Shown here one piece after another: positions 1,989-57,040 of a stretch of DNA of 64,000 bases (its first letter is position 1; every line of letters begins with the position of its first letter). Location of the stretch: NCBI GenBank assembly GCA_946811185.2, contig OX328106.1, forward strand, positions 44,342,311 to 44,406,310, written 5' to 3'. Under the pieces are notes generated by a model. It was not told the origin of the DNA and ran no database searches. It saw only the letters and a list, made by a program, of their open reading frames with translations. Origin of the DNA: Hippopus hippopus (Eukaryota > Mollusca > Bivalvia > Cardiida > Cardiidae). The position numbers were made by a program, and so were the translations under genes.

Positions 1989-4900
1989 TGATTCCTGTCA
2001 CAATGAAAAAATAAATCCCACCTTTCGTAAAGCAGTGTTGGTGACCATATTATTTAATTCAATATTTTTTTACAGAGACACGAGCCGGACCCTATACTAC
2101 GTGACAATGATCATCTCTCGTTTGAAGGGTTTGCTAAATACCTCATGGATAAAGAAAATTATGCCTACCTGTTTGAGAAGACTAAACACCATGACGAAGT
2201 AAGTGGTTGTCATTGGAGCCATTCTTCAGTAATTTCCCTTGGTCCTGACCAGGGAATCACTTGGTTTTTATCATTGACTTTCTTGCATTTCACAGATATG
2301 TTCTTGAGATAATATCTCAACTTAATCTGGTAAGATTATTCGAGAAATTGATTATACAAGAAAAAAGGAATACATTTGAAAGGACCAATGTGTTATTTGG
2401 TTACCTTTAGTCTTTATCTGGCAAGGGAGATGATTTGACTTATAGGAATGTCCCTCATTGGTGTCGTTAATAGATCTAGATGTGGCATTCCCACCTACCA
2501 AGTACAGAAAAATAATGGCTGTGTGCTGAATCAGGTTTTTCTTTTTCAAAGGAAAGTACTAAAATGTATCTCATTTAATCCACGTTTGAATAACGTTCGG
2601 TGAAAAGGGGCCTTGGTGTATCTGTAAAAAAAATCGACAAAGGTAAGTCTTCGCAATCCACACAGGCTTACCAGAGTCGGAACTTTCTCGTATTCGTAAA
2701 TTTTCTGCATATCCAAGGACTTTCCTAGCTCTTGATTCAGTCGGTTATTGCACAAATGGTTTTTATGGATCTTTATTTATGTGATGACTTGCTTGATATA
2801 ATCCATTAGGAAGATGCACTGAACTCCTTTTAGCCAGAGCGCAGCTCAATTGTATAATGAGTTATTGGTTTTGAAAATGAGCTTTTATTTCAAAATAACT
2901 AGCAGACAGTATAAAGGACACAAGTAAGATAATTATTTATTATATTCCTATCAGTGAATTACTGGGATTTCTCAGTGTATTATTTTTTCAGTTTTTCACA
3001 GTGAATAACATCACTAGTGATGATATGGTATCGTCACTAGTGATGATATAGTTTTAGAATGTTTGCCGGAACTACTTTTTTCCTATATTGCTCAGTCTAA
3101 TGTTTCTGTCTCTGCTTCAAACATTTTTAGTAAACAATAGCTCAAGGAAAATATTTTCGGTACAGTCTTTGCAAACAATCCTGAACGACCTTGTGGGAGA
3201 AAACCTTTGAAAACATTTCGAGAAAAGAAGATAGCTATTGTGGGAGAGAGCTCTTGGAAAATATTGTGGAAAAACGAGAAATACTACCAACCGGCATTTT
3301 CTCCTTTTCCCATAATATTTTCTATCCTATCAGAAAACCTAAGGTCTTTTGTACCAATTGTCATCTGGAGATTTTTTTAATTTGGGAAAGTCTTAAACTT
3401 GTCATGTGGGAAAGGGTTAACTGTTTCTTCTTCTAATTTCATATGGCTGGATTTAAATTGTAAAAGTGAAAAACAATGCATGCCTTCAAATGGAGAGATA
3501 GATGACGTTACTTACACGAGAACCCTCGAGTGTTACGCCATCTGTTGCGTCAGCTGCTTCTGCCAAAAATGGATCATGTGTTTGCAAAGAAAAGTCCTAT
3601 GTATACCTGCCGTTCTTGATAATTATTAGCAAACAAAGGGAGAGTTAGGAATAATAATGAATAGAATAATCAACAATGTTGTGTGATATTAAAAATCTGT
3701 CATTCGAATGGGGTTTGATACGGTTAAAAAACTCGTCCTTTGGACTCGTTTTTCAACCGCATCACTCCCCTTTCTAGTGACAGATTTTTAATATCACACA
3801 CCACCAGTTGATTATCCTTTTATATACTCTTTATTGAGTTTTATATTGTCACCATTGACCATTTTTGAATTTTGCCTTTTGTCTGTTACTGCACATTTTG
3901 TATGAAACCAATTCTGGCGTGCAGTTGTTAATAGACAATCATTTAATAAATCCATTTGTCTATTTCCAGGACATGGATCATCCACTCGCCCATTATTACG
4001 TCGCATCCAGTCATAACACATATCTAACGTCTCATCAACTGAAGGGTGACTCATCTGTGGAACTTTATAGCCAAGTAAGTCCATCCAAATATGGCATAAA
4101 GCCGTGGTGCATTTATAGGCACGCTAGGGGCCAAAAGTATGTATTCATGTAACATTTAAAAGCATGGATATTATTATGTGTCTGACAAAAACGACAATAA
4201 CGTTAGTGATATCTATGGTAGATACTACCTTTGACAATATAATAGATTTCTCAGATCTCATTTCTCAGTTCCAGTCGCTGGCTGAAAAATTGTATGGTAA
4301 TACTTGAATTAAAGTAGCCTAAATTTGTGCTAGTTTTACAATACAGTTTTCTGCCAGCGACTTGAACTTTGACAGATTCCATTGTAACGCACTATCAGAC
4401 TGATAATATTATCCATACTTTTAAATGGTATGAATTTAATTTGTCGGCAGTTTGATACCCATTTTTTACATTTGGCTGCTAGTGGGCCTTTAAGTTTGAC
4501 TTCCACGTGTGTCTGGAGATATGATGGAATGTGACAGTCATGCTACAAAGTGGTCCTAAAGAAAATTTTCACGTTTAATTATATGATGCAATATAGTTCT
4601 CGGAGATAAATTGGGTACTCGTGACGGAAAGTTTGACCTACGGATAAAAATGTGTTAACCCTATGCTACTAAGCGTGACTCCCTGACCTTTTGCGGACAG
4701 TGTAGATCAAGATCAGACTGCACAGAACGTGCAGTCTTATCTTTGATCTTCATTGTCCCGTAACGACATATTTTACCCCTAAAAATAGCTTTGAAATAGT
4801 AAAATTTGGCTTTTTGCTATGAGCTTGAAAGTTTCATTTCACTTATTTAGCAGGATAAGGGTTAAAAAAACGCGCAACGATGCATCAGTCTAAAAATGTT

Positions 4901-7900
4901 GTGATACTTACAGATATTACTGACGGGATGCCGGTGTGTAGAACTAGACTGTTGGGACGGCGATGATGGGCTTCCTCTGATTTATCATGGACATACTCTC
5001 ACTACAAAGATCTCATTTAAGGTATAGCGCCTACAGCACTTTCTGTAATAGACATACTCTCACTACAAATATCTCATTTAAAGTATAGCGCCTAAAATAC
5101 CTTTTGTAATAGACATACTCTCGCTACAAAGATCTCATTTATGGACGCCTATAGCACGTTCTATGATAGACATACATGTACTCTCACTACAAAGATCTCA
5201 TTTAAGGTATGGTCGCCTTCAGCACTTTCTGTAATAGACACACTATCATTGCAAAGATCTCATGTAAGGTATGGACGCCTTCAGCACTTTCTGTAATAGA
5301 CACACTGTCACTACAAAGATCTCATTTAAGTTATGGACGCCTATAGCACTATCTGTTATAGACATACTCTCACTTCAATGATCTCATTTAAGGTATGGTC
5401 GAATTCAGCACTTTCTGTAATAGACATACTCTCACTACAAAGATCTTACCTTTAAGGTGTGAATGCCTTCAGCACTTTCTGTAATAGACAAACTCTCACT
5501 ACAAATATCTCATTTAAAGTATAGCGCCTAAAATACCTTCTGTAGTAGACATCCTCTCACTACAAAGATCTGATTTATGGACGCCTATAGCACGTTCTAT
5601 GATAGACATACATGTACTCTCACTACAAAGATCTCATTTAAGGTATGGTCGCCTTCAGCACTTTCTGTAATAGACACACTATCATTGCAAAGATCTCATG
5701 TAAGGTATGGACGCCTTCAGCACTTTCTGTAATAGACACACTGTCACTACAAAGATCTCATTTAGGTATGAACGCCTATAGCACTATCTGTCATAGACAT
5801 ACTCTCACTTCAATGATCTCATTTAAGGTATGGTCGAATTCAGCACTTTCTGTAATAGACATACTCTCACTACAAAGATCTTACCTTTAAGGTGTGGATG
5901 CCTTCAGCACTTTCTGTAATAGACATACTCTCACTGCAAAGATCTTATTTAAGGAATGGTCGCCTATAGCACTTTCTTTAATAGTCATACTCTCGTTACA
6001 AAGATTTCATATAAGGTATGGTTGCCTTCAGCACTTTCTGTAATAGACATACTCTCACTAAAAAGATCTCATTTAAGGTACTGTTGCCTATAGGACTTTC
6101 TTTAATAGACATACTCTGACTACAAAGATCTCATTTTAGATATGGTTGCCTATAGCTCTTTCTGTAATACAAATACTTTAACTGTAAACGTCTCATGAGG
6201 AGGGTAGTCACATGAAGCGTTAACTACATGTACCATGGCCACACACACATCAATATGTCCTTTAAAGTATTGTTTTTCAAATTAAATCGTAGACCAAGCA
6301 TAACTTCAAAATCTCATTCAAGATGTGGTGGCCTAAGGTATTATGGGCATACTCTAGCTTCAGAGTTATCATCAAGGGAATGGAAGAAAGCTTAAAGCAT
6401 TATCGACATGTAACACGGACCACTAACCACAAAAAATATCATGCAATCCATGGACGCCCAAAAGGTGTCTAGCATGGATATGCTCTAACTGTAAAATATC
6501 ATTTGAAGTAAAGTCACCGAATTAATCACAGACAAAGCTTTACTTCAGAAATCTCTGTTACGGTCTTGCGGCCTAATCGTTAACGGGCAATCTCTAGTTA
6601 TTCACAACTCATCTATAGGTTTGTCGTCTAACGGATTATTTTTCAGTAGCATGCTTTGACCACAGAGAATAAAGTTACAATAATGGTCGCCTAATATACC
6701 ATCGTCTATCAACATGCTCTAACTACAAAGATCTTATTTAAGTTAGAATTGCCTTAGACACTCTTAATTATGGACTTAATAGGTTTCATGTAAGTTATGG
6801 TTCTTAAAGCCTTATCAGTAACATACATGCCTCGTCCAATAAGGATCGCATTTGCACAAGTTTCGACAAGCTATCATCTATCACGAGCATACATGTGTAT
6901 ATGAGTTTTTCTTATTTCCTAAAATAGGCGGTTGTAGAGGCCATCAATGACAGTGCGTTTGTGACGTCACCATATCCAGTGATACTCTCGTTGGAGAACC
7001 ACTGCTCCATTGCTCAACAACAGAAGATGGCTCAGATTTTTACGGTAGGGGACGTTATTAATCTTAATGTTTTAGTTAGAAGTTATTGATAAGCAAGTCA
7101 TGAGTAGTGATCAAAATAAGTTAAGAGTATTCTTATATCGCAAGTCAATTTACCTTTTTCATTTATAGACATTGTTTTGAATGTTCCTGTCACATTATAT
7201 GCAGAAACGGTTGGATAAAAAAACGACTTTGATTTTAAAATAGATCGCTCTGGCAAAAGGGGGTTTAATGCTTACATGGATCGAAGCGTTTTGCTTTTTG
7301 GACCATTCTGCTTCATGATTAGTCAGTTGTTAGACAAAAAAGATTTCATGGATCCATAATTATGTAATGACTCGCAATGTAGACTTGCACTGTAGACGCA
7401 TTAACTCCCTCTTTTCTCAGAGCATGACTCCCATGTGATAATTTTAACGATTTCATGCAGTTCTTTGCCCTCCAGAGTTCTTCGCCAGTTCAATATCTGT
7501 ATTAGATCGTATGCTTTGACCGGTCTTTTATTACTTTGCAACCTTTCTGAACATCGCTCACTTACTTTCGTATTGTATTTACTAACACACAAATCAAAAG
7601 ACTAGTATTGTTCAAACTTTAAATTTCAAGATTAACTCTCTGAAACACTGGGACGATCGGTATCAGCCAAACATATGGCTTGGCCTGTGATCCAGAATTG
7701 AACTAGATTGAGTAAAAACGAGCCACGAACTTTTCGATGCCGTTACATGTTTCTCTCAGACCCGAATAACAAGATTTGTGTAGATCAGTAACAGCTTTCA
7801 TTTGAACTTCTTCTTTCTATATTCTCCCCTTTTTACAGAGTATTTTTGGAGAGAAGTTGGTGACCCAGTTTTTATTTGACACTGATTTTACGGACGACCC

Positions 7901-10900
7901 TGTTCTACCATCTCCAAACCAGCTCAAATATAAAATACTCATCAAAAACAAAAAGATTTGGGAAGAGGCCGACCAACACGCAACTGCCAAACGGGTACGT
8001 AAACACGATTCATTTTGCACATTAACGAAACGATCCCACTGCACAAGACTAGCAATCTAACAAGCTTCAGATCTACTCTGTCCTACAATCTGTGAGATGA
8101 AGTGGGAAATACAATCCTTACAGTCAAATGCAATTGACCTTCTACAGCGACTAAAATTGTTGCTTATGTTTATTTAGCAGCATAATAATTAACCCTTATC
8201 CTGCTAAATAAAAGAAATGGAACTTTCAAGCCGATAGTAAAAATCCAAATATTGCTATTTCAAAGGTATTCTTGGAGGACAGATATCTCCTTATCGGACA
8301 GTGTAGATCCAAGATCAGATTGCACGGTCCGTGCAGTATGATCTTGATCTACACTGTCCGCAAAAGGTCAGTGAGTTGCGCTTAACAGCCTAAGGATTAA
8401 AAGGTTACATTCTTATCATATTTACGAAAATTGACCCAAGATTGGAATAAATGTACACTTTAATCAACTCTGAGACTGTGTATTCTATTGTTCGAATTAC
8501 GATTTGGCTGTTATTGATTCAGTTCTAAATGAGTCACGTTTTCGTAAGTGTAATCTTGCCAAATGGTAAAGAACGAGTACCTTTTTTTCGCACTGTAGTA
8601 GCTTCGTAGGCATTTTCATAGTAAGAAAAAATGGATTGCATTGAAAATGTTTATACCATTGAATATTTTTCTCTTGGACTGTATTATTACACGAAAGAGT
8701 CATTACCATAGGGCAGCCTATTGAAAAGGAATCGCTAGGCGACATAAATAGTGATTTAAGGTTAGAGACCCGTCCGAGCATGCACGTTTTCGTAAGTGTA
8801 TTCTTGCCAAATAAATAGTACAAGCATATGAAATTGAGATGACAATATATATTCCTACATACCACATTTTCTTTCAGGCCTCAGCTTTCAGCAGAAATTA
8901 TAGTATTGTGATGACGGAGAGCGGAACGTCACATGATTTTGATGATGAAGATGATGACGATGATGAGGAAGATGACGTTACAGATGGTTAGTAGAAAAAC
9001 TAACTCTACCTTGTTCATTTTTTGTTTCCTTTGTTCATTTTTTCTCCTGTCTTTATCAATTTCTCCTTCTTTCTATTTTTATTTTGTTGTACACTTTTTT
9101 TCTATTTCATTTAGTTATCTACACCTTGTCTTTTATATGTTTAGTTTCCATTATTATCCCCCGCCGAAGGCGGAGGGATATAGTTTTAGCGTTGTCCGTC
9201 CGTCCGTGTGTCCGTCCGGGAGAATATCTCCAAGACAATTGGACGGAATTTCGTGAAACTTTATACATGTGTACAAGAACCCATTCCGCCGATACTTTTT
9301 TTTCTATTTTTTGATTCGATGAAAAATGGCCGACTGGGAGCGATTTTAAGTTACGCGGTCAAGTAAATTTTTCGGCGGGGGATATCATTTCAACGAAATT
9401 GCTTGTTTATTTACTTTTATTGTTTATTTGATTGTAGGGGAAGGGCCGAATCTAAGTTGGAAGAACTTGTGGCCCTACCCCATTAACTTCTCGAATATAT
9501 GTTTAAACTTGACTAGTAGAAAAAACAGAAAATTTTTGCTCGTATGAATATGTAAAACCAATAGTTGCAAGTTACCATTTACTGTCCAGAAGGACAATAA
9601 ACTCATCCAAACTACCTGTAGCAGGCCGTGATCAACTCTTAATAATTTTGCGGATGTTGTAGATAAACTGCGCAGAATGCACTATCGGAATTTGAGTCTG
9701 AACTGTCCGCTAAATTATGAGATTTCAATGCCAAAAATGGTTTGTAGTATAGTGTCAGGGTTTTCATACCCACTGAATAATTCGTAATCTTTCCTTTAGA
9801 ATTTTAAGACAAAACATGCCGTCGTTTTTTTTTTTTATCTATACTGCCAAATGAACAGTGACGTATTTTTAGCAGTGAAAATCTTCGAATTAACTGTGTC
9901 TGTTCTACTGGCCAAAATTTAATCCTAAGGCTGCTAAGGATGACCTAGTGCTCTTTTGCGGACAGTGTAGATCAAGATCAGACTGCAGTCTGATCTTGGA
10001 TCTACACTGTCTGATACGGTGAGTTTTTTTTTTTTTTACAGCAACAAGAACTTTGTAATCACAATGTTTCAGTATATACTGTTGACTTAAAGTCTTAATT
10101 CTATTTACTTAGCAGTTTAGGGATTAAAAAAATACATAGAAGTCGTTCAGTGTTATTTATGTTATTTATCCGGCACTGACGGCATGGGTCAAGTTGAGAC
10201 AAAGCCTGAGTGTTTTAATTCATTATCTTATGTTTTATTTCACAGTCAAAGATTCTCGAAGGTCGGTAGACAGTCAGGAGAGTCGGACCTCCCCGGATAA
10301 TGAAGACAAGGATGGTTCCATGCATCCATCAGGTTCCTGCGGAGACTTGATGAGGTATGGACGCCTAGCGAATAACTCTTTACTAAACAACAAAGTCAAA
10401 GACTGGTCCGAATTGAAAGCATTTGCAGAATACGATTTCAATGTGGCTCAAATGATGGAATTTGTTTTAGATGGGGTGAAAAATATAGTGGGAAAAGGAA
10501 AATATGTTGGTTACCAGCATTTTTTCCATTTCCCGCCATGTTTTCAAAGCCTTCCATGTTATGGTCGGGATTGTGTGGTAGAGAGTTTCACTGCAAAATG
10601 AATTAAAGGTAGATATCGAACCAAGAGCAAACACCCAAATATCGTAATTTTAAAACTGTTTTTCTGGGAAAAACCCCGTCATTTTGGTCAGTGTCGAGCA
10701 AGATAAGATTACACAAACAGTGAAGGCTAATTTTGATCAACACTGTCCAGTAAGTATAATTGACTTTGTGCTTAGCAGCGAATTGATAAACATAACAATA
10801 TATCCACCAACAGCTCCTTCATGCGAAAGCAGACCCTTTTTGACCAGAAGAAATCATAAGAAAAGATTTTTAAAACGATAAACCAAAGAGAATTTGTAAG

Positions 10901-13900
10901 AAATCTTCGACACTGATGTCCACATAAACTGTTGACAGATGCACAAATAGACGGACGGACAGAATATCGTATTCATATTTTTTTCAGTTTCTGCTTACTT
11001 AAGCAGGTCTGACAAAAACGATTTGATATAATGGTGTATGCGTCATGTTGTTAATGATAAAAAAAATGTAATTCCCATTAATAAAGTATTCTCTTCTGTT
11101 AACACGATTTTCAACCCCATTTGACTTTTAATTAAGGAATGGCAAGATCAATTTCCATCTTAGTTTATATCTATTTGGAATTTGAATGATTTTCACTCGC
11201 AATGAATTTATCTTTTAATGCACAATTTTCATATGTTTATTAACTTGGAAAAGGTGCCTTGATAGTGCCAGTAATATACATTTAGCGTAACCTTAATGTA
11301 TCCTAGTATATCCTTTCCAACTAGGAACACTTATTTTGCCAAAAAAAAAATCATTGTTATAGTTTAATAACTATTACTGTTGCTGATAGTTTTGTTATTT
11401 TGTATATTATCGTTGTTGTTTAATTTGAATTTATGTAAGACACGTATAAAAGCACGTTTTCCTCGTGACAGAAGAGGATCTTGCACGTTTAATGAGAAGC
11501 ATCGACCAAAGAGTCAGCCGGAACTGGATTGGCAGTTTGATGATGATATGCAGGAGGTCAAGAGTCAGTCTAAAAATAAAGCAAAGAAAGCCAGTCAGAT
11601 TGCAAAAGAGTTGTCGGACCTTGTTGTATACCTGCAAGCAGTGAAGTTTAGAGGTATTGTTGCTCTTTTCTTATCGTGTAATTGGAGTAATTGGGAAAGG
11701 TCGTTCATGATATAGATCGAATGACTCTTAACTCCGGGATCCACACACTAAATGACAAAGTTTTTCAACTTGTCGTTTTGAGACCATTTGCAGACAACAA
11801 ATTAGATGTTTCTCAAATAATGGTGTTTGCCTTTGAACGGATAGAAAACGTTTTGTGAAATGGAGAAATAGCTGGATGTGCGCACTTCTCCTTGTCACGA
11901 AATACGGATCCAATAGCTTTTGCCTCAAGTTCGTAAAAACATGTGATCGTTTGGTAAAGGGTTAACTTGGTATCGAAGGAATATGCTTAGATTAGATGAA
12001 CCCTTCTGTACAAAGTTAACGATGTTTCTTTTGCTAGAATAAAGTTTTTTAATCAAGTCCCGCGAGATATTTGAAAGAAGTTGAAGATTATCAAAGTAAT
12101 TCAAACTTTTACAGAAAGAGATTTACAGAATACTCAAACAGAATACCAGAGAGATAAAACAAGGCAGTGAGCAGTTCGTTTTCATCAACCGTTCTTAATA
12201 CTGTCCTATTTCAGATACCAATGACTGGCCAGTCAGTTAGCTGAAGCTTAATGCCTTAATTAATCATATGATTGATCTTGGCATAAAAAAATAGAATTGA
12301 ATTTAGATTGACTGGTGAATCCGGAAATGGCATGGATCAGCTGATTATAATAGAAACCTGATAACTACATACACTGTATACTTTTATGAGTCGGCTAACG
12401 ACACACGTCTTGTCTACCCACAGGTCTCAACGTGAGTCCGAATTCTTCTCTAAAGCAAAGATATGCTAAACCAGGCGGTGGAAAGAAACAACATGGAAGT
12501 ATAGCCGGGACGCCTCCCTCATCGAGCGGTAAACAATGTCACGTTATTCTCACTTTGTTTTCCGTATCAAAAGCACAGTATATGTCTTTTATAGACGAAA
12601 AGCACGATAGCACAAATTTGGCGATATCTTCAAGTTTCTCTGTTCCTTTTGAATTGCAATATATCGCAGTTCTTAATCACCAGTGGTCTATTTCCTTCAT
12701 AATTTATTCTAAAAAAACTTTTAAACCGTTACAATACTTGCTATGTATGGAAACTGCATAAACTATTACGTCTAACACATAGAAGGAATATCCAAAGAAT
12801 GTGCAATATCTTCTTGCACGTTTTTTTTCTTCAAAATTTCTTGGAAGTCGACATAAAAAAAGCTGTATTTATATGTCACCTTGGAGAAAAAAAAAGTATG
12901 TTCATGCTACTGTTAAAAGTAAATGGTGGATTTACTTGTCAATTGATTTTTTTCCCTCATATTGGAACCACAATAGTAATTTTGAATTTGAAAGTTTGAC
13001 ATATAGGCAAACCATGCATAAAATTAAGTTATTTGTGCTTATTCTTTTGCACAATGGAAAAGCCTGTGTGTCATTACTGTCAGTGCTTTGATTTTTTTAA
13101 CCATGAAAGGATTCCAGTACAATGTACATAATTCTCTGTTTCAGATCGAGGAGATCACAGTATTAACACAAACATTTCCCTCCGCCAAAAGAGACCAGAC
13201 AGTACCCCATCTTGTTACCTGGTGTCATCCCTGAACGAGAATAAAGCCAAACAACTGTGTAGGAGAAATCCGAACCTTGTCATCAAATATCCTTGACGGC
13301 GTTACAAATCCTTGACTTAACTCTGTACTAACCGACAATTTTTTGGACTCGACCTAATTGAAAGCATTTGAAGACGACAAATAAAATGAAGCTTAAATGA
13401 TGATTTCTTCCTTCACAGGGAAGAAAACATGGGAAAATGGGAAAGGGCTGGTAACCAGCATTTTCTCCTTTTCCCACAATGTTTTGTAAAGCCATCTTCA
13501 TAAGGGATGTTAAAACTCGGCACTGTGTGGTAAATGGTAAATTGAATTACTTGTTATGTACTTGAAATGCTACCCATTTACGGTGTAAAATACTTTGGTT
13601 TGGCTGCATTGAAATCTTTTCTGAATGTTTGAAATGTATATTTGTTCCAGAAAATCAAGAATCAAAAACACCAAACAAATATCTGATAATACCTCTAGAT
13701 AAGTATTTTATAAGGATAGTTTTACGATGTAATGATTTAAAACGTTGATCTTTTTTCCTTAAAATCATTGTCCATATTTTACAGGGACTTTCTCAGCGTC
13801 GTCTGCTCTATATTGTTTTAGCAATTTATCGAATTAAATTCATAAACCATATTTTACTCATAAATGCTAATGAAAATCAGAAAAAAATGAGATGAATGAG

Positions 13901-16900
13901 AGGTTAGTAAATTTTATTTACTGGTAACAACAAATGACTCTTCTCCTTAACTCCATTGTCACTCATACCGAAAAGCAATTAATGAGAACTTATCCGGCTG
14001 GAATGAGAATAGACTCGTCCAATTTCAACCCAGTTTTGTTTTGGGCCTTCGGTATCCAGATGGTGGCTTTAAATTACCAAACTGAAGGTATGTACTTAAA
14101 TTCACCCATGAGCTTTGGAAAACTTTATGGGGAAATGAGAAATTGATAATGAGAAATTGATTATAACAAGCGACTCCTCAGATTCCAATAACGTTTTCTG
14201 TCCTGCTGAAAAAAAAACTGCATTTTCCCAACCTTCTAGAAAGTCGTAAAAAGGCTTTCGGAGTTATGAGTTAACTCTCTTGCTGCCACTTTTAATTCTT
14301 TGCCTTTCTCGATGTCTTAAAGCTTGTTTCCAGTGCAAATAAATATGAACCGCACTACGACAGGTGAAAACCCTGACATACGTGAGTATGTGATCTGTCA
14401 CCATGATATGACTGAAATGATATTGTGAGCGGTTTAAACACCATTCAATCAATTATAAAACAAGATCATTCATAAAGGGAAAATTCCTTTCCTTCAAAGT
14501 TTTCTCTTTGCAGCTTTATTTTAGGAAAGATTTTGGCAAGTGTAGTCTAAAATTTGAAAGTATATGTATAATTCTTTGCTGAACCAGAACCGACAATAAG
14601 GCTTGTTTCAAGATGTTTTGTAGAGGTATGCTTTCCTGTGTCTATGTCTACAATATCTTTCTTACTTTTCAGATACGGCCATAGCAATCAATACAGCCTT
14701 GTTCGAGCAAAACGGCCAAAGTGGATATGTTTTAAAGCCAGCAGTCACGTGGGATAAAAGTCATGTTATGTACAATCACTTCAATCCGTTGGACAAAGAA
14801 TTCGATGGACTGCACACAACAGTTCTTACACTCCATGTAAGTAAACCATTATATGATGAATTGATCGGAACGCCAACTAACCATCCATGTAAACGATTAA
14901 CCTTGAGTCATTATTTGTTTTTTCAAACTTTTGCAACTCTTTATTTTGATTGATAATCATCGTATTATGGCTGATCATTTCTTTAGATAGCGGAACAAAT
15001 CACTCTGAAAATGATAAAAATATGAAGAGTGTGTGTGTGTGGAATTAAATGGTTGAGTGAAAATACAATTATTACAGAACGATAACTTGAATTTGAAATT
15101 GGTAATCTAAAGCTCGGACAATAAATAGGAAATCAGTACTTCAGACCGAGATCACTGCACGCCCCTGCAGTCTGATTCTGGTCTTCACTGTCAGAAAGAA
15201 AGTCAGAGATCGAGATGCATAGGATACCGATTAACTCTTTACAAAACGACAAAATTTTAGACTGGTCCAATTGAAATCATTTGAAGACAACACATAGATA
15301 TGACTCAAAAATTGAAATTTGTTTTTGAAAGAGAGGAAAACATTTTTGGAAAAGAAGAAAATGCTGGTTTCCAGCATTTTCTCCTTTTCCCACAGTGTTT
15401 TCTAAAGCCTTCTGTCTAAGGGTCGTTAAAACCTGGGATTCTGTGGGAAAGGGTTAAACCAATTTATATTTCATTACAGGTGATATCCGGCCAATATGTA
15501 TGTTCCAACTATACGGCCAGTACTCAAGTAGAGGTAGAGATTATAGGAATTCCGGTGGACTGCGCTAAACATAAGACAAAAGTAATCTCGAGAAATGCTC
15601 TCAACCCAATATGGAACGATGTTTTCACATTCCAGGTACGGTTGTGCAAGAGCCTTAGATTTAAAAGAGAATTATGAATGCCGAGTACTACGCCCATTAT
15701 ACATATTAACATAAATAGTGTAACATTGGTCATCACGACTGGTTTGAGTCTCACAGTGTTATTTCAATCGCCAGTGTTAGACCGGGGTTTTATGTGTTTT
15801 TACACACAAGAATGCCACATGACCAGCATCGCCAGCAGAATTCGAACCAGGCTTTTGTGATTGCTCGTCAAGTGTCGGCAGACTTAGTATTGGAAGATCC
15901 TGAAGCTCAGTGACTGTTTACTTAATTTGATTTAACTCGTCGTTTCAACTACATAACGTTACTGTACCAAATGTATAACTTGTGTCATTTCAATTACCTA
16001 CTAAATATATATGATTAATGTCGTTTTGTCTTTTTATCTTTCTGACTACATACTAGAAGATACACTGAGTACTTAATTTGTATAACTTATATGTATATAT
16101 GCCGTTCAGACTATATACCTAATATTCGTATGCTCTGTGTCACTTAGATACTTCATCTGTTACATAAACAAAATAAATGTTGTGTATTATGAGTAGTGAG
16201 TTACACCGTGTGGTGAGAAATGGAAGACCCGTCTATCTGAAATACGTAAGTCAGTTCTTCCGAAGTGTATGACTGCAAAACACTCTTGGCTCCTACATTG
16301 TCATGGGTGGAATCAAGGCTTTTGAGGCTTTTTTTATGTTCATAAATAAGCGTTTTTAAGCGTTAGCCGTCCAAACAAAAAATGTATATAAAGGCAAATT
16401 TATCTTAGCATTTTGATAAATATGAGCTTAGGTATTTTTGTAAATGCACTGTTTTCTGTTTCTGTTTTCTCTCCATTTTTACGTTAATATGCAGGCAGCC
16501 AGAATAATGATAGAGGGAGAAGTCAGCCAAAATATAAAACATTTGAAAATTGGTGTGATCGTTGTACATATTTGTATTATACTAGGTGATGTATTCGGAA
16601 CTGGCGTTCATACGGTTTGTTGTCACGGATACCATTACCAACCACGTAGTCTCACAACGTGTCATTCCTCTCAAATGCCTCAGACCAGGTAAGCCTAAAA
16701 TTAGTATTTTATTATCTAATGCTTCTTATTATCAGTCAGTAAAGAAAAAGTGAAACATTTAAAAGTTGCATATAAACTGAAGTAAAAACATGCAAATGAA
16801 TAAAAATTCTGCATACACATGCATAATATATTTCTAGTCTTTACCTTTGGTGAACGTGTCTAGATGATGGCTTCAAAAATTCCACAGAGCTGTTTTACAA

Positions 16901-48453: not shown

Positions 48454-49060
48454 TCCTGATGAGCTTAGTCGGTAATGCACGGTACTAGAAAATTTAGGAG
48501 TTGCCAGTTCGATGGCCGAGCCTGGTAGCTCTGCTGATGACAAAAGGGCTTGAAAATTAGGGGTTTGGGGTTGGATGCCGAGCCAGGTAGCTCAGTTGAT
48601 GACAACAGGGCCTGAAAATTAGGGGTTATTTGTTCGATGGCTGAGCTCGGTAGTTCAATTGGTAACTACAGGGCTTAGAAATTAGGGGTTGTGGGTTCGA
48701 TGGCCGTGACCCTGTCGCTCACTTGGTGACAACATGGATTTAAAAGTAGGGGTTGTTGAATCGATTGCCGAGCCCTGGTAGCTCAGTTGGTGACAACAGG
48801 GCTTGACAATTATGGGTTGTGGGTATGGATGGCCGAGTCCGGTAGATTAGAGGTTGTGGGTTCGATACTGAGCCTGCTAGCTCTGTTGGTGACAACATGG
48901 CTTGAAAACTAGGGGTTGTAGGTTCGATGCCGGGCCCGGTAGCCCAGTTGGTGCCAGAGCTTGAAAATTAGAAGTGAGTCGGATGGCCCGGTAGCTCAGT
49001 TGATGACAACAGGGCTTGAAAATTAGGGGTTGTGTGTTCGATACCGAGCTTGGTAAAATA
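48454..49060 (+). repeat. Tandem array of about ten tRNA-like units
   Basis: Units of about 63 bp of the form GCCGAGCCCGGTAGCTCAG / TTGGTGACAACAGGGCTTG / AAAATTAGGGGTTGTGGG / TTCGATG. TAGCTCAGTTGG is an A-box-like and GGTTCGATG a B-box-like pol III promoter. One unit is shortened (48830-48875). Units differ by scattered substitutions. Confidence 0.9.
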
Positions 49061-55172: not shown

Positions 55173-55299
55173 AATAAACAACATGGAAAATTATGTGCTG
55201 AAGCGCTTATCTGCTTACAGGAAAGACTGGCTACTATACCCTTTACCAAAAAATCACGTTTTACTTATCAAGACATACATTCCGACAAACTTTCATAAG

Positions 55300-57040
55300 T
55301 ATTTGAGAGAAAATGTGGCCTGTAAGGTGTAAAAAAGGTTTTTCTGAGATTTGACCTAGTGGCCTAGTTTTTCATCCAACATGACCCATATTCATACTAG
55401 TCTAAGATATTATCAAGACAAACATTCAATGCAAATTTCAAGATTATTGGACTGAAAATGTGGCCTCTAGAGCGTACACACGGTTTTTCAAGGATCAAAC
55501 TTGGTGACCTAGTTTATTCCATGTGACCCATTTTCAAACTCATGCAAGATATCATCAAGACAAACATTCTAACAAAAGTTTAAAGAATATTGGACTGTAA
55601 TTATAGTACAAAAAGTTTTTCCGAGATTTGACCTTGTGACCTAGTTTTTTATCCAACATGACCCATTTTCATACTAGTCTAAGAAATTATCAAGACAAAC
55701 ATTCTGACCGAATTTCAAGATTATTGGACTGAAAATGTGGCCTCTAGAGCTTACATAAGGTTTTTCTACGATTTGACCTGGTGCCCTAGTTTTTGACCTG
55801 ACATGACCCATTTTCAATCTCATCCAAGCTATCATCATGACCATCTTTAAAGAGCATTGGACTGAAAATGTGGCTTCTGGAGCGTACACAAGGTTTTTCA
55901 AAGATTTTAACTAGTGACCTAGTTTTTGACCCCACATGGCCCACTTTTGAACTCATCTGCGATATTATCAAGACAAACATTCTGACCAAATTTCAAGAGT
56001 ATTGGACAGAAAATGTGGCTTCTGGAGCATATACAAGGTTTTTTTAAGATTTGACCTAGTGACCTAGTTTTTGATCCAACATGGCCTGTTTTCAAATTCA
56101 TCAGAGATATCATCAAAACAAACATTCTGACCACCTTTCAAGAGTATTGGACTGAAAATGTGGCCTCCAGAGCGTACACAAGGTTTTTCTAAGATTTGAC
56201 CTGGTGACCTAGTTTTTGACCCGACATGGCCCATTTTCAACTTCGTCCGAGATATCATCAAGGCAAACATTCTGACCAAGTTTCAGGAGTACTAGACAGA
56301 AAATGTGGCCTCTAGAGCATACACAAGTTTTTTCTAAGATTTGACCTGGTGACCTAGTTTTTGACTCAACATGGCCCATTTTCAAACTCGTATGAGATAT
56401 CATCAAGACAAACATTCTGACCAACTTTCAGCAGTATTGGACTGATAATATGGCCTCTAGAGCGTACACAAGTTTTTTCTAAGATTTGACAGGGTGACCT
56501 AGTTTTTGATCCGACATGGCCCATTTTCGAACTCATCTGAGATATCATTTAGACAAACATTCTGACAAACTTTCAGGAGTATTAGACAGAAAATGTGGCC
56601 TCTAGAGCGTACACAAGGTTTTTCTAAGATTTGACCTAGTGACCCAGTTTTTGACCCGAGATTACCCATTTTCGAACTCGTCCGAGATATCATCAAGGCA
56701 AACATCATCTTCCGAGATATTATCAAGGCAAACATTCTGACCAAGTTTCAAGAATATTAGACAGAAAATGTGGCCTCTAGAGCGTACACAAGGTTTTTCT
56801 AAGATTTTACCTAGTGACCTAGTTTTTGACCCGACATGACCCATTTTCGAACTCGTCCAAGATATCATCAAGGCAAACATTCTGACCAAGTTTCATGAGT
56901 ATCGGACTGAAAATGTGGCCTCTAGAGTGTACACAAGGTAAAAAGTTGACGACGGATGATGCACGATGCACGACGGACGCCGGACACAGCACGATCACAA
57001 TAGCTCACCATGAGCACTATGTGCTCAGGTGAGCTAAAAA
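55300..57040 (-). repeat. 145-bp tandem array ending in a GAGCTCACC hairpin
   Basis: Eleven to twelve units of about 145 bp, each with CCTCTAGAGCGTACACAAGG, ATTTGACCTAGTGACCTAG, TTTTTGACCCGACATGGCCC and ATCATCAAGACAAACATTC. The array ends in GATGCACGACGGACGCCGG and the hairpin TAGCTCACCATGAGCAC / GTGCTCAGGTGAGCTA. This is an expanded, inverted relative of 44852-45482. Confidence 0.93.

Follow-up and report, generated by a model that had tools for sequence, protein, structure and literature searches.

In the bivalve Hippopus hippopus, the intron behind an X-domain exon of a PLC-epsilon gene is almost entirely occupied by a tandem array whose first unit consists of the end of the exon together with its splice donor (Table 1). 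Positions refer to the window, i.e. the whole stretch of 64,000 nucleotides of contig OX328106.1 that was analysed. The array is probably a minisatellite of the mirage type, which would have arisen by neutral slippage or unequal exchange while selection kept the exon unit alone intact. A first-pass annotation of this DNA had listed such a neutral origin, with selection on the first unit, as an alternative to a role in splicing, and it is this alternative that best fits the data presented below.

Table 1. Features of the PLC-epsilon exons, the intron and its tandem array (window positions)
Feature	Position	Strand	Basis
PLC-epsilon X-domain exon	4914–5021	+	Reading frame; match of the joined exons to a PLC-epsilon structure (PDB 6pmp, E 1.6e-75)
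Unit 1: exon bases 4990–5021 plus the first 29 intron bases; real donor AAG/GTATAG at 5021/5022	4990–5050	+	Repeat call, alignment
Intron, 1906 bases, almost all array	5022–6927	+	Begins GTATAG
In-frame TAG hit by any exon extension past the real donor	5025–5027	+	Continuation translates as Val-stop
Young units 2–19, 79–92% identity to consensus	5051–6169	+	Wrap-around alignment
Seven-unit block, first copy (units 2–8)	5051–5486	+	Tandem Repeats Finder, alignment
Exon-like stretch of unit 8 between TAATAG and GTGTGA, 33 nt, in frame, no stop	5424–5456	+	Sequence, donor score
Seven-unit block, second copy (units 9–15)	5487–5921	+	425 matches, 10 mismatches, 1 gap
In-frame 33-nt stretch of unit 15, followed by the array's best-scoring donor-like site, AAG/GTGTGG	5859–5891	+	Sequence, donor score
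Degenerate old units, about 12, 55–75% identity to consensus	6170–6889	+	Alignment, shuffle test
Downstream PLC-epsilon exon, begins AVVEAINDS	6928–7044	+	Joins 4914–5021 in phase

The repeat unit combines an exon end with its splice donor

The two exons flanking the array can be joined without a change of frame, and their translation matches experimentally solved structures of PLC-epsilon. The X domain is nearest to PLC-epsilon (Table 1), the next class being gamma (E 3.8e-55), and among the 120 best proteins listed the PLC-epsilon stretch showed the top identity, 88%, to a protein of Dreissena polymorpha that aligned with 99% of the query. The array unit is 62 bp long and comprises the last 32 bases of the exon and about 30 bases of the intron start. 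The annotation had placed the catalytic residue, H178, inside the unit; we take the catalytic histidine to be that of IYHG (codon 4986–4988), as judged by PLC-delta1 His356, and not that of HTLTT, which puts it just outside the repeat unit. An inverted repeat of 207 nt (4659–4865 and 8189–8395, 83% complementary) encloses three PLC-epsilon exons, namely the two flanking the array and a further one at 7839–7994, a layout that might promote the formation of circular RNA.

Tandem Repeats Finder reported an array at 4990–6177 with a period of 62 and 19.1 copies, as well as a 436-bp period, and a wrap-around alignment followed 31 units from 4990 to about 6889, leaving little of the intron outside the array. 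The first-pass description of about 19 units was too low as to the count and missed the full extent of the array. Its central claim, that the exon end and donor form the first unit, was borne out: local alignment of the last 40 exon and first 30 intron bases against the next 2 kb scored 52, compared with 21 for the best of 60 shuffles. The other 10 PLC-epsilon donor sides scored only 10–15, and the outcome named in the same annotation as refuting its claim, an exon end no nearer to the units than chance, is not what was seen. The exon agrees with the majority of the 18 young intronic units at every one of its 32 positions (lowest share 0.72), and the unit tree places the exon-containing unit on a short branch amid the young units.

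The array consists of two tiers and contains a duplicated block

Identity to the consensus was 79–97% in units 1–19 and 55–75% in units 20–31, with a step near 6170 and no clear trend within either tier; unit 29, at 75%, is an exception to this two-tier picture. Of the earlier claim that units decay toward the next exon, the presence of an old tier near that exon holds, while a gradual decay is replaced by the step, which argues for two growth phases. Since identities of 55–75% can partly be reached by chance in such an alignment, the stretch 6170–6890 was checked against shuffled sequences: it scored 93 versus −46 ± 10 in 25 dinucleotide shuffles (z 13.7), and each of its thirds exceeded 60 shuffles by at least 7.5 standard deviations. 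The same shuffle test applied to three stretches of neighbouring introns revealed no units there (z −1.5, 0.0 and −0.4). The duplication of a seven-unit block, already recognised in the first pass, was recovered as well, its period being 436/435 bp rather than the 437 bp first given; the two copies are about 97.5% identical and differ at 11 places.

The old units showed a mean identity of 0.514 to unit 1, 0.512 to unit 2, 0.45–0.51 to the other young units and 0.385 to each other; a role of unit 1 as "master copy" is thus weakly supported, because other young units are almost as near to the old tier. The exon halves of the units were slightly more alike than the intron halves, both among young units (0.88 versus 0.81, one-sided P 0.059) and among old units (0.48 versus 0.41, one-sided P 0.047), a difference that constraint could explain, as could conversion from the exon, and that counts against the neutral reading.

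The exon is older than the array

The exon end encodes a 10-residue peptide that recurs unchanged in gene models from Dreissena (P0122), Tegillarca (P0001), the leech Helobdella (P0030) and in four gastropod-like models (P0007, P0124, P0125 and P0128); a single residue is different in Pomacea (IPFK) and in Patella and Lottia (ISLK). This peptide is old and common to molluscs and the leech, indicating that the exon seeded the array. The intron is likewise older than the array, because the donors of two PLC-beta paralogues in this genome sit at the corresponding FK position (PFK/GTATGG at locus L023 and LFK/GTAAGT at locus L039); on the same evidence, intron gain by AG/GT tandem duplication was rejected. 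The commonest exact donor form of the young units is GTATGG (7 of 18), which is also found at L023, while the real donor's GTATAG is shared with units 2 and 9; the present real donor therefore looks derived. The Leu codon within the unit has its third base at unit position 11, where C is found in the exon and in 17 of the 18 young units but in none of the 12 old units (8 A, 2 T, 2 G), a pattern suggesting either that the exon once read CTA or that a change had already occurred in the sequence from which the old units descend. If selection fixes one unit, arrays of this sort may record which synonymous codons an exon used in the past, here an old CTA against the present CTC.

We propose that 32 exon and about 30 intron bases of PLC-epsilon were tandemly duplicated inside the pre-existing intron and that slippage or unequal exchange subsequently enlarged the array over two or more phases, the first giving rise to the old array, now at 6170–6889, and a later one to the young exon-side expansion (4990–6169), including one 436-bp block duplication. 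Because purifying selection would hold the exon sequence, the exon half of unit 1 would not decay and would stay available as a partner for new misalignments near the exon, while the intronic units would drift. The array itself would most likely be neutral and spliced out from the real donor.

Two other accounts of how the array came about were weighed against this one, and we consider both very unlikely. The array might have overwritten the exon end by conversion, instead of being derived from it. Units 1, 2 and 9 share GTATAG-CGCCTA, from which it follows that exon-side and array units exchange sequence or share recent ancestry, but the peptide shared with other molluscs and the leech puts the exon first and leaves only synonymous exchange to such a process. 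Alternatively, the array or its seven-unit block might be an artefact of assembly, or two haplotypes placed end to end. The array is known from one haploid assembly, and the identity of the block copies lies within the range that bivalve alleles can show; against an artefact, the array units alone are duplicated, the differences between the block copies fall in four of the seven units, and degenerate units could not be produced by assembly.

Splice signals in the array are not preferentially retained

The annotation had stated that many units keep a donor-like sequence, which holds for many but not all of them: exact TTTAAGGTATGG occurs four times and exact AAGGTATGG seven times in the intron, and the donor GT is present in 13 of the 18 young and 3 of the 12 old intronic units. 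Expressed as retention, the donor GT was kept in 0.72 of all 18 young units and, with the block duplication collapsed, in 0.64 of the remaining 11; among the 12 old units the share was 0.25. The corresponding means over all pairs were 0.80, 0.80 and 0.31, and, counted from the lowest, the donor GT ranked 10th, 6th and 23rd, respectively, among 61 pairs. The donor GT is thus kept no better than other pairs, and the donors are not preserved by selection. Of the 11 collapsed units, 6 retain a donor-like site that outscores the real one, versus 8.0 expected (P 0.15). This deficit of strong donors and the possible slight excess of donor GT loss are not significant; their direction would be that of a purging of harmful donors. 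No excess of RNA structure was found in the 937 nt of exon and array between 4914 and 5850 (z +1.55; 18 of 20 shuffles folded at least as well). The forced donor choice, exon extension and decoy or silencer activity that had been suggested for the array in the first pass are consequently without positive support, as is a splicing function of the array in general, and the use of array donors is only hypothetical. Any extension of the exon would end at once, because the intron in the exon frame begins GTA TAG (Val-stop).

The donor-like sites could nevertheless form a ladder that competes with a weak real donor, extended transcripts running into the TAG and being degraded so that array length tunes PLC-epsilon output. 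With a human donor matrix applied to the 93 GT sites in 5019–6930 (the real one included), the real donor scored −0.19, a weakness that the first pass had overlooked, and 15 sites scored higher, among them seven AAG/GTATGG sites at 4.39 and a best site at 5.04. By the same matrix the real donor was the second weakest of the ten usable PLC-epsilon donors listed (the donor at 16689 was left out of this comparison), and sites scoring at least 3.7 numbered 12 in the 1.9-kb intron versus 3 across four further stretches of this gene that together span 5.1 kb. The immediate stop upon exon extension and the GT loss in young units, which is slightly above average and would fit selection against harmful decoys, point the same way. 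On the other hand, the U1 pairing energy of the real donor (−5.7) is near that of GTATGG (−6.2) and stronger than that of three other PLC-epsilon donors (−5.0 to −5.1), another donor of the same gene, at 11653, has a matrix score just as low (−0.48), the array is not denser in sites above the real donor (7.9 per kb) than the four other stretches (0, 4.8, 6.5 and 10 per kb), and the GT deficit falls short of significance. Competition among donors is an improbable account of the array, and somewhat less probable again is a rheostat, in which the real donor would have become weaker than its intronic copies and array length would govern the loss of PLC-epsilon transcripts to extended, stop-containing exons. 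With a weak donor lying next to copies of itself that score higher, the locus offers a natural test of how a cell chooses among near-identical donors. From TAATAG to the next donor, most young units measure 31 nt by hand count, which shifts the frame, whereas units 8 and 15 measure 33 nt, and these two stretches could be read as an in-frame microexon adding 11 residues after ISFK. They contain no stop, are flanked by TAATAG and GTGTGR and are followed by donors with strong scores, and a gene model of Tegillarca granosa (P0001) has 11 residues, SSLHFHDYTFQ, inserted exactly at the junction of the studied exon. The insertion was, however, seen in Tegillarca alone, 1 of 175 PLC proteins that fitted the pattern (out of 234 from two overlapping lists of 120 best; 59 did not fit), and is missing from Dreissena, which has the highest identity among the proteins listed; its ending, TFQ, looks like that of an acceptor picked too far upstream, and the gene caller probably chose such an acceptor. 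Four other long spacers at this junction comprised three delta-type PLCs, in which the pattern had slipped as judged by eye, and P0039, a model without an exon. A microexon is very improbable, and the neutral array is the reading that we favour.

Exon-end copies elsewhere in the gene and genome

A search of the 1.07-Gb genome with the doubled unit, in which very common words are skipped, returned 10 matches, all of them in this array; a dispersed satellite was rejected, the unit being found at this locus only within the reach of that search. Among the exons of the PLC-epsilon gene, copies were present at 1 of 11 donor sides, the one described here, and at none of 8 acceptor sides, several boundaries in this survey having been set by hand and some acceptor positions being approximate. 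Minisatellites are dense on the same contig, which favours the neutral reading: 15 arrays (period at least 20, at least 3 copies) were counted in 20 evenly spaced 10-kb stretches (200 kb). Within the window, further arrays were noted at 1–777 (368-bp unit, 2.1 copies, 99% matches, at the window edge), at 55267–56939 (a larger array with periods of 145/290/435 bp) and at 48488–49046, where a unit of 62–64 bp carries a tRNA-like head (GGTAGCTCAGTTGGT ... GGTTCGA). The head of this last unit looks tRNA-derived from its sequence; ARAGORN found no tRNA anywhere in the window.

Among 19 matches to PLC X-domain exons in the genome, clear donor-side copies of the exon end were present at two loci, the exon studied here (L027) and L039, which belongs to a PLC-beta gene (C2, about 1.17 Mb). 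At L039 the 3' end of the exon and its donor (1552–1636) are repeated at 1684–1768 with 86% identity over 85 nt and a spacing of about 130 bp, and the acceptor side of the exon (1493–1525) is copied at 1858–1890 (91%); we regard this as a second, short and independent mirage case at the homologous exon boundary. L034 may be a third short case and was left out of the count: its scores on the two sides, 34 and 25, exceeded shuffle maxima of 17, its 3' alignment lying mostly in intron repeats of that locus, and on its 5' side 18 coding bases (IENHCS) recur without a mismatch in the intron about 450 bp upstream (1069–1086 and 1522–1539). At L026 and L037 the 5' side exceeded their 20 shuffles by 2. 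Two cases in 19 are a small sample biased to one gene family, and both lie at a homologous boundary; the second case suggests recurrent exon-end duplication in a minisatellite-rich genome.

Comparison with known minisatellites at exon–intron boundaries

A literature search in which all terms were required yielded no report of such an array in a bivalve or mollusc genome, although one may have been published all the same. In human segmental duplications, tandem repeats are described at exon–intron boundaries of young duplicated genes, where they can form new introns (PMC2812944). Minisatellite growth at a boundary, with the potential to touch splicing, is common to both; new introns are possible there, while the intron in Hippopus is older than the array. 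The donor-site minisatellite of human IFI6 (6-16, G1P3) is similar in that its repeat units carry splice donors, and its downstream units are reported to serve as used donors (PMC4526556); in Hippopus, by contrast, the sites score well while extension would meet a stop after a single codon.

The closest likeness is to the mirage minisatellites of amphioxus, a published precedent that the first-pass annotation had not noted and which are described for Adh3 and the globins BflGb6 and BflGb9, with units of 10–72 and 150–160 bp, many of which have splice signals; RT-PCR there is reported to suggest no interference with regular splicing, and haplotypes differ in length (PMC3087553). The Hippopus array shares with the mirages so described a unit that spans the exon–intron boundary, 62 bp in this case, and many units with splice signals, and differs from them in its about 31 units filling nearly the whole intron, in its two divergence tiers and in its location in a bivalve PLC gene. 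Judged by its sequence, it appears to be of the same kind, a large and layered bivalve member, and the array is real and its mechanism probably ordinary. It adds a bivalve case to the mirage minisatellites, and a paralogue supplies another, short one.
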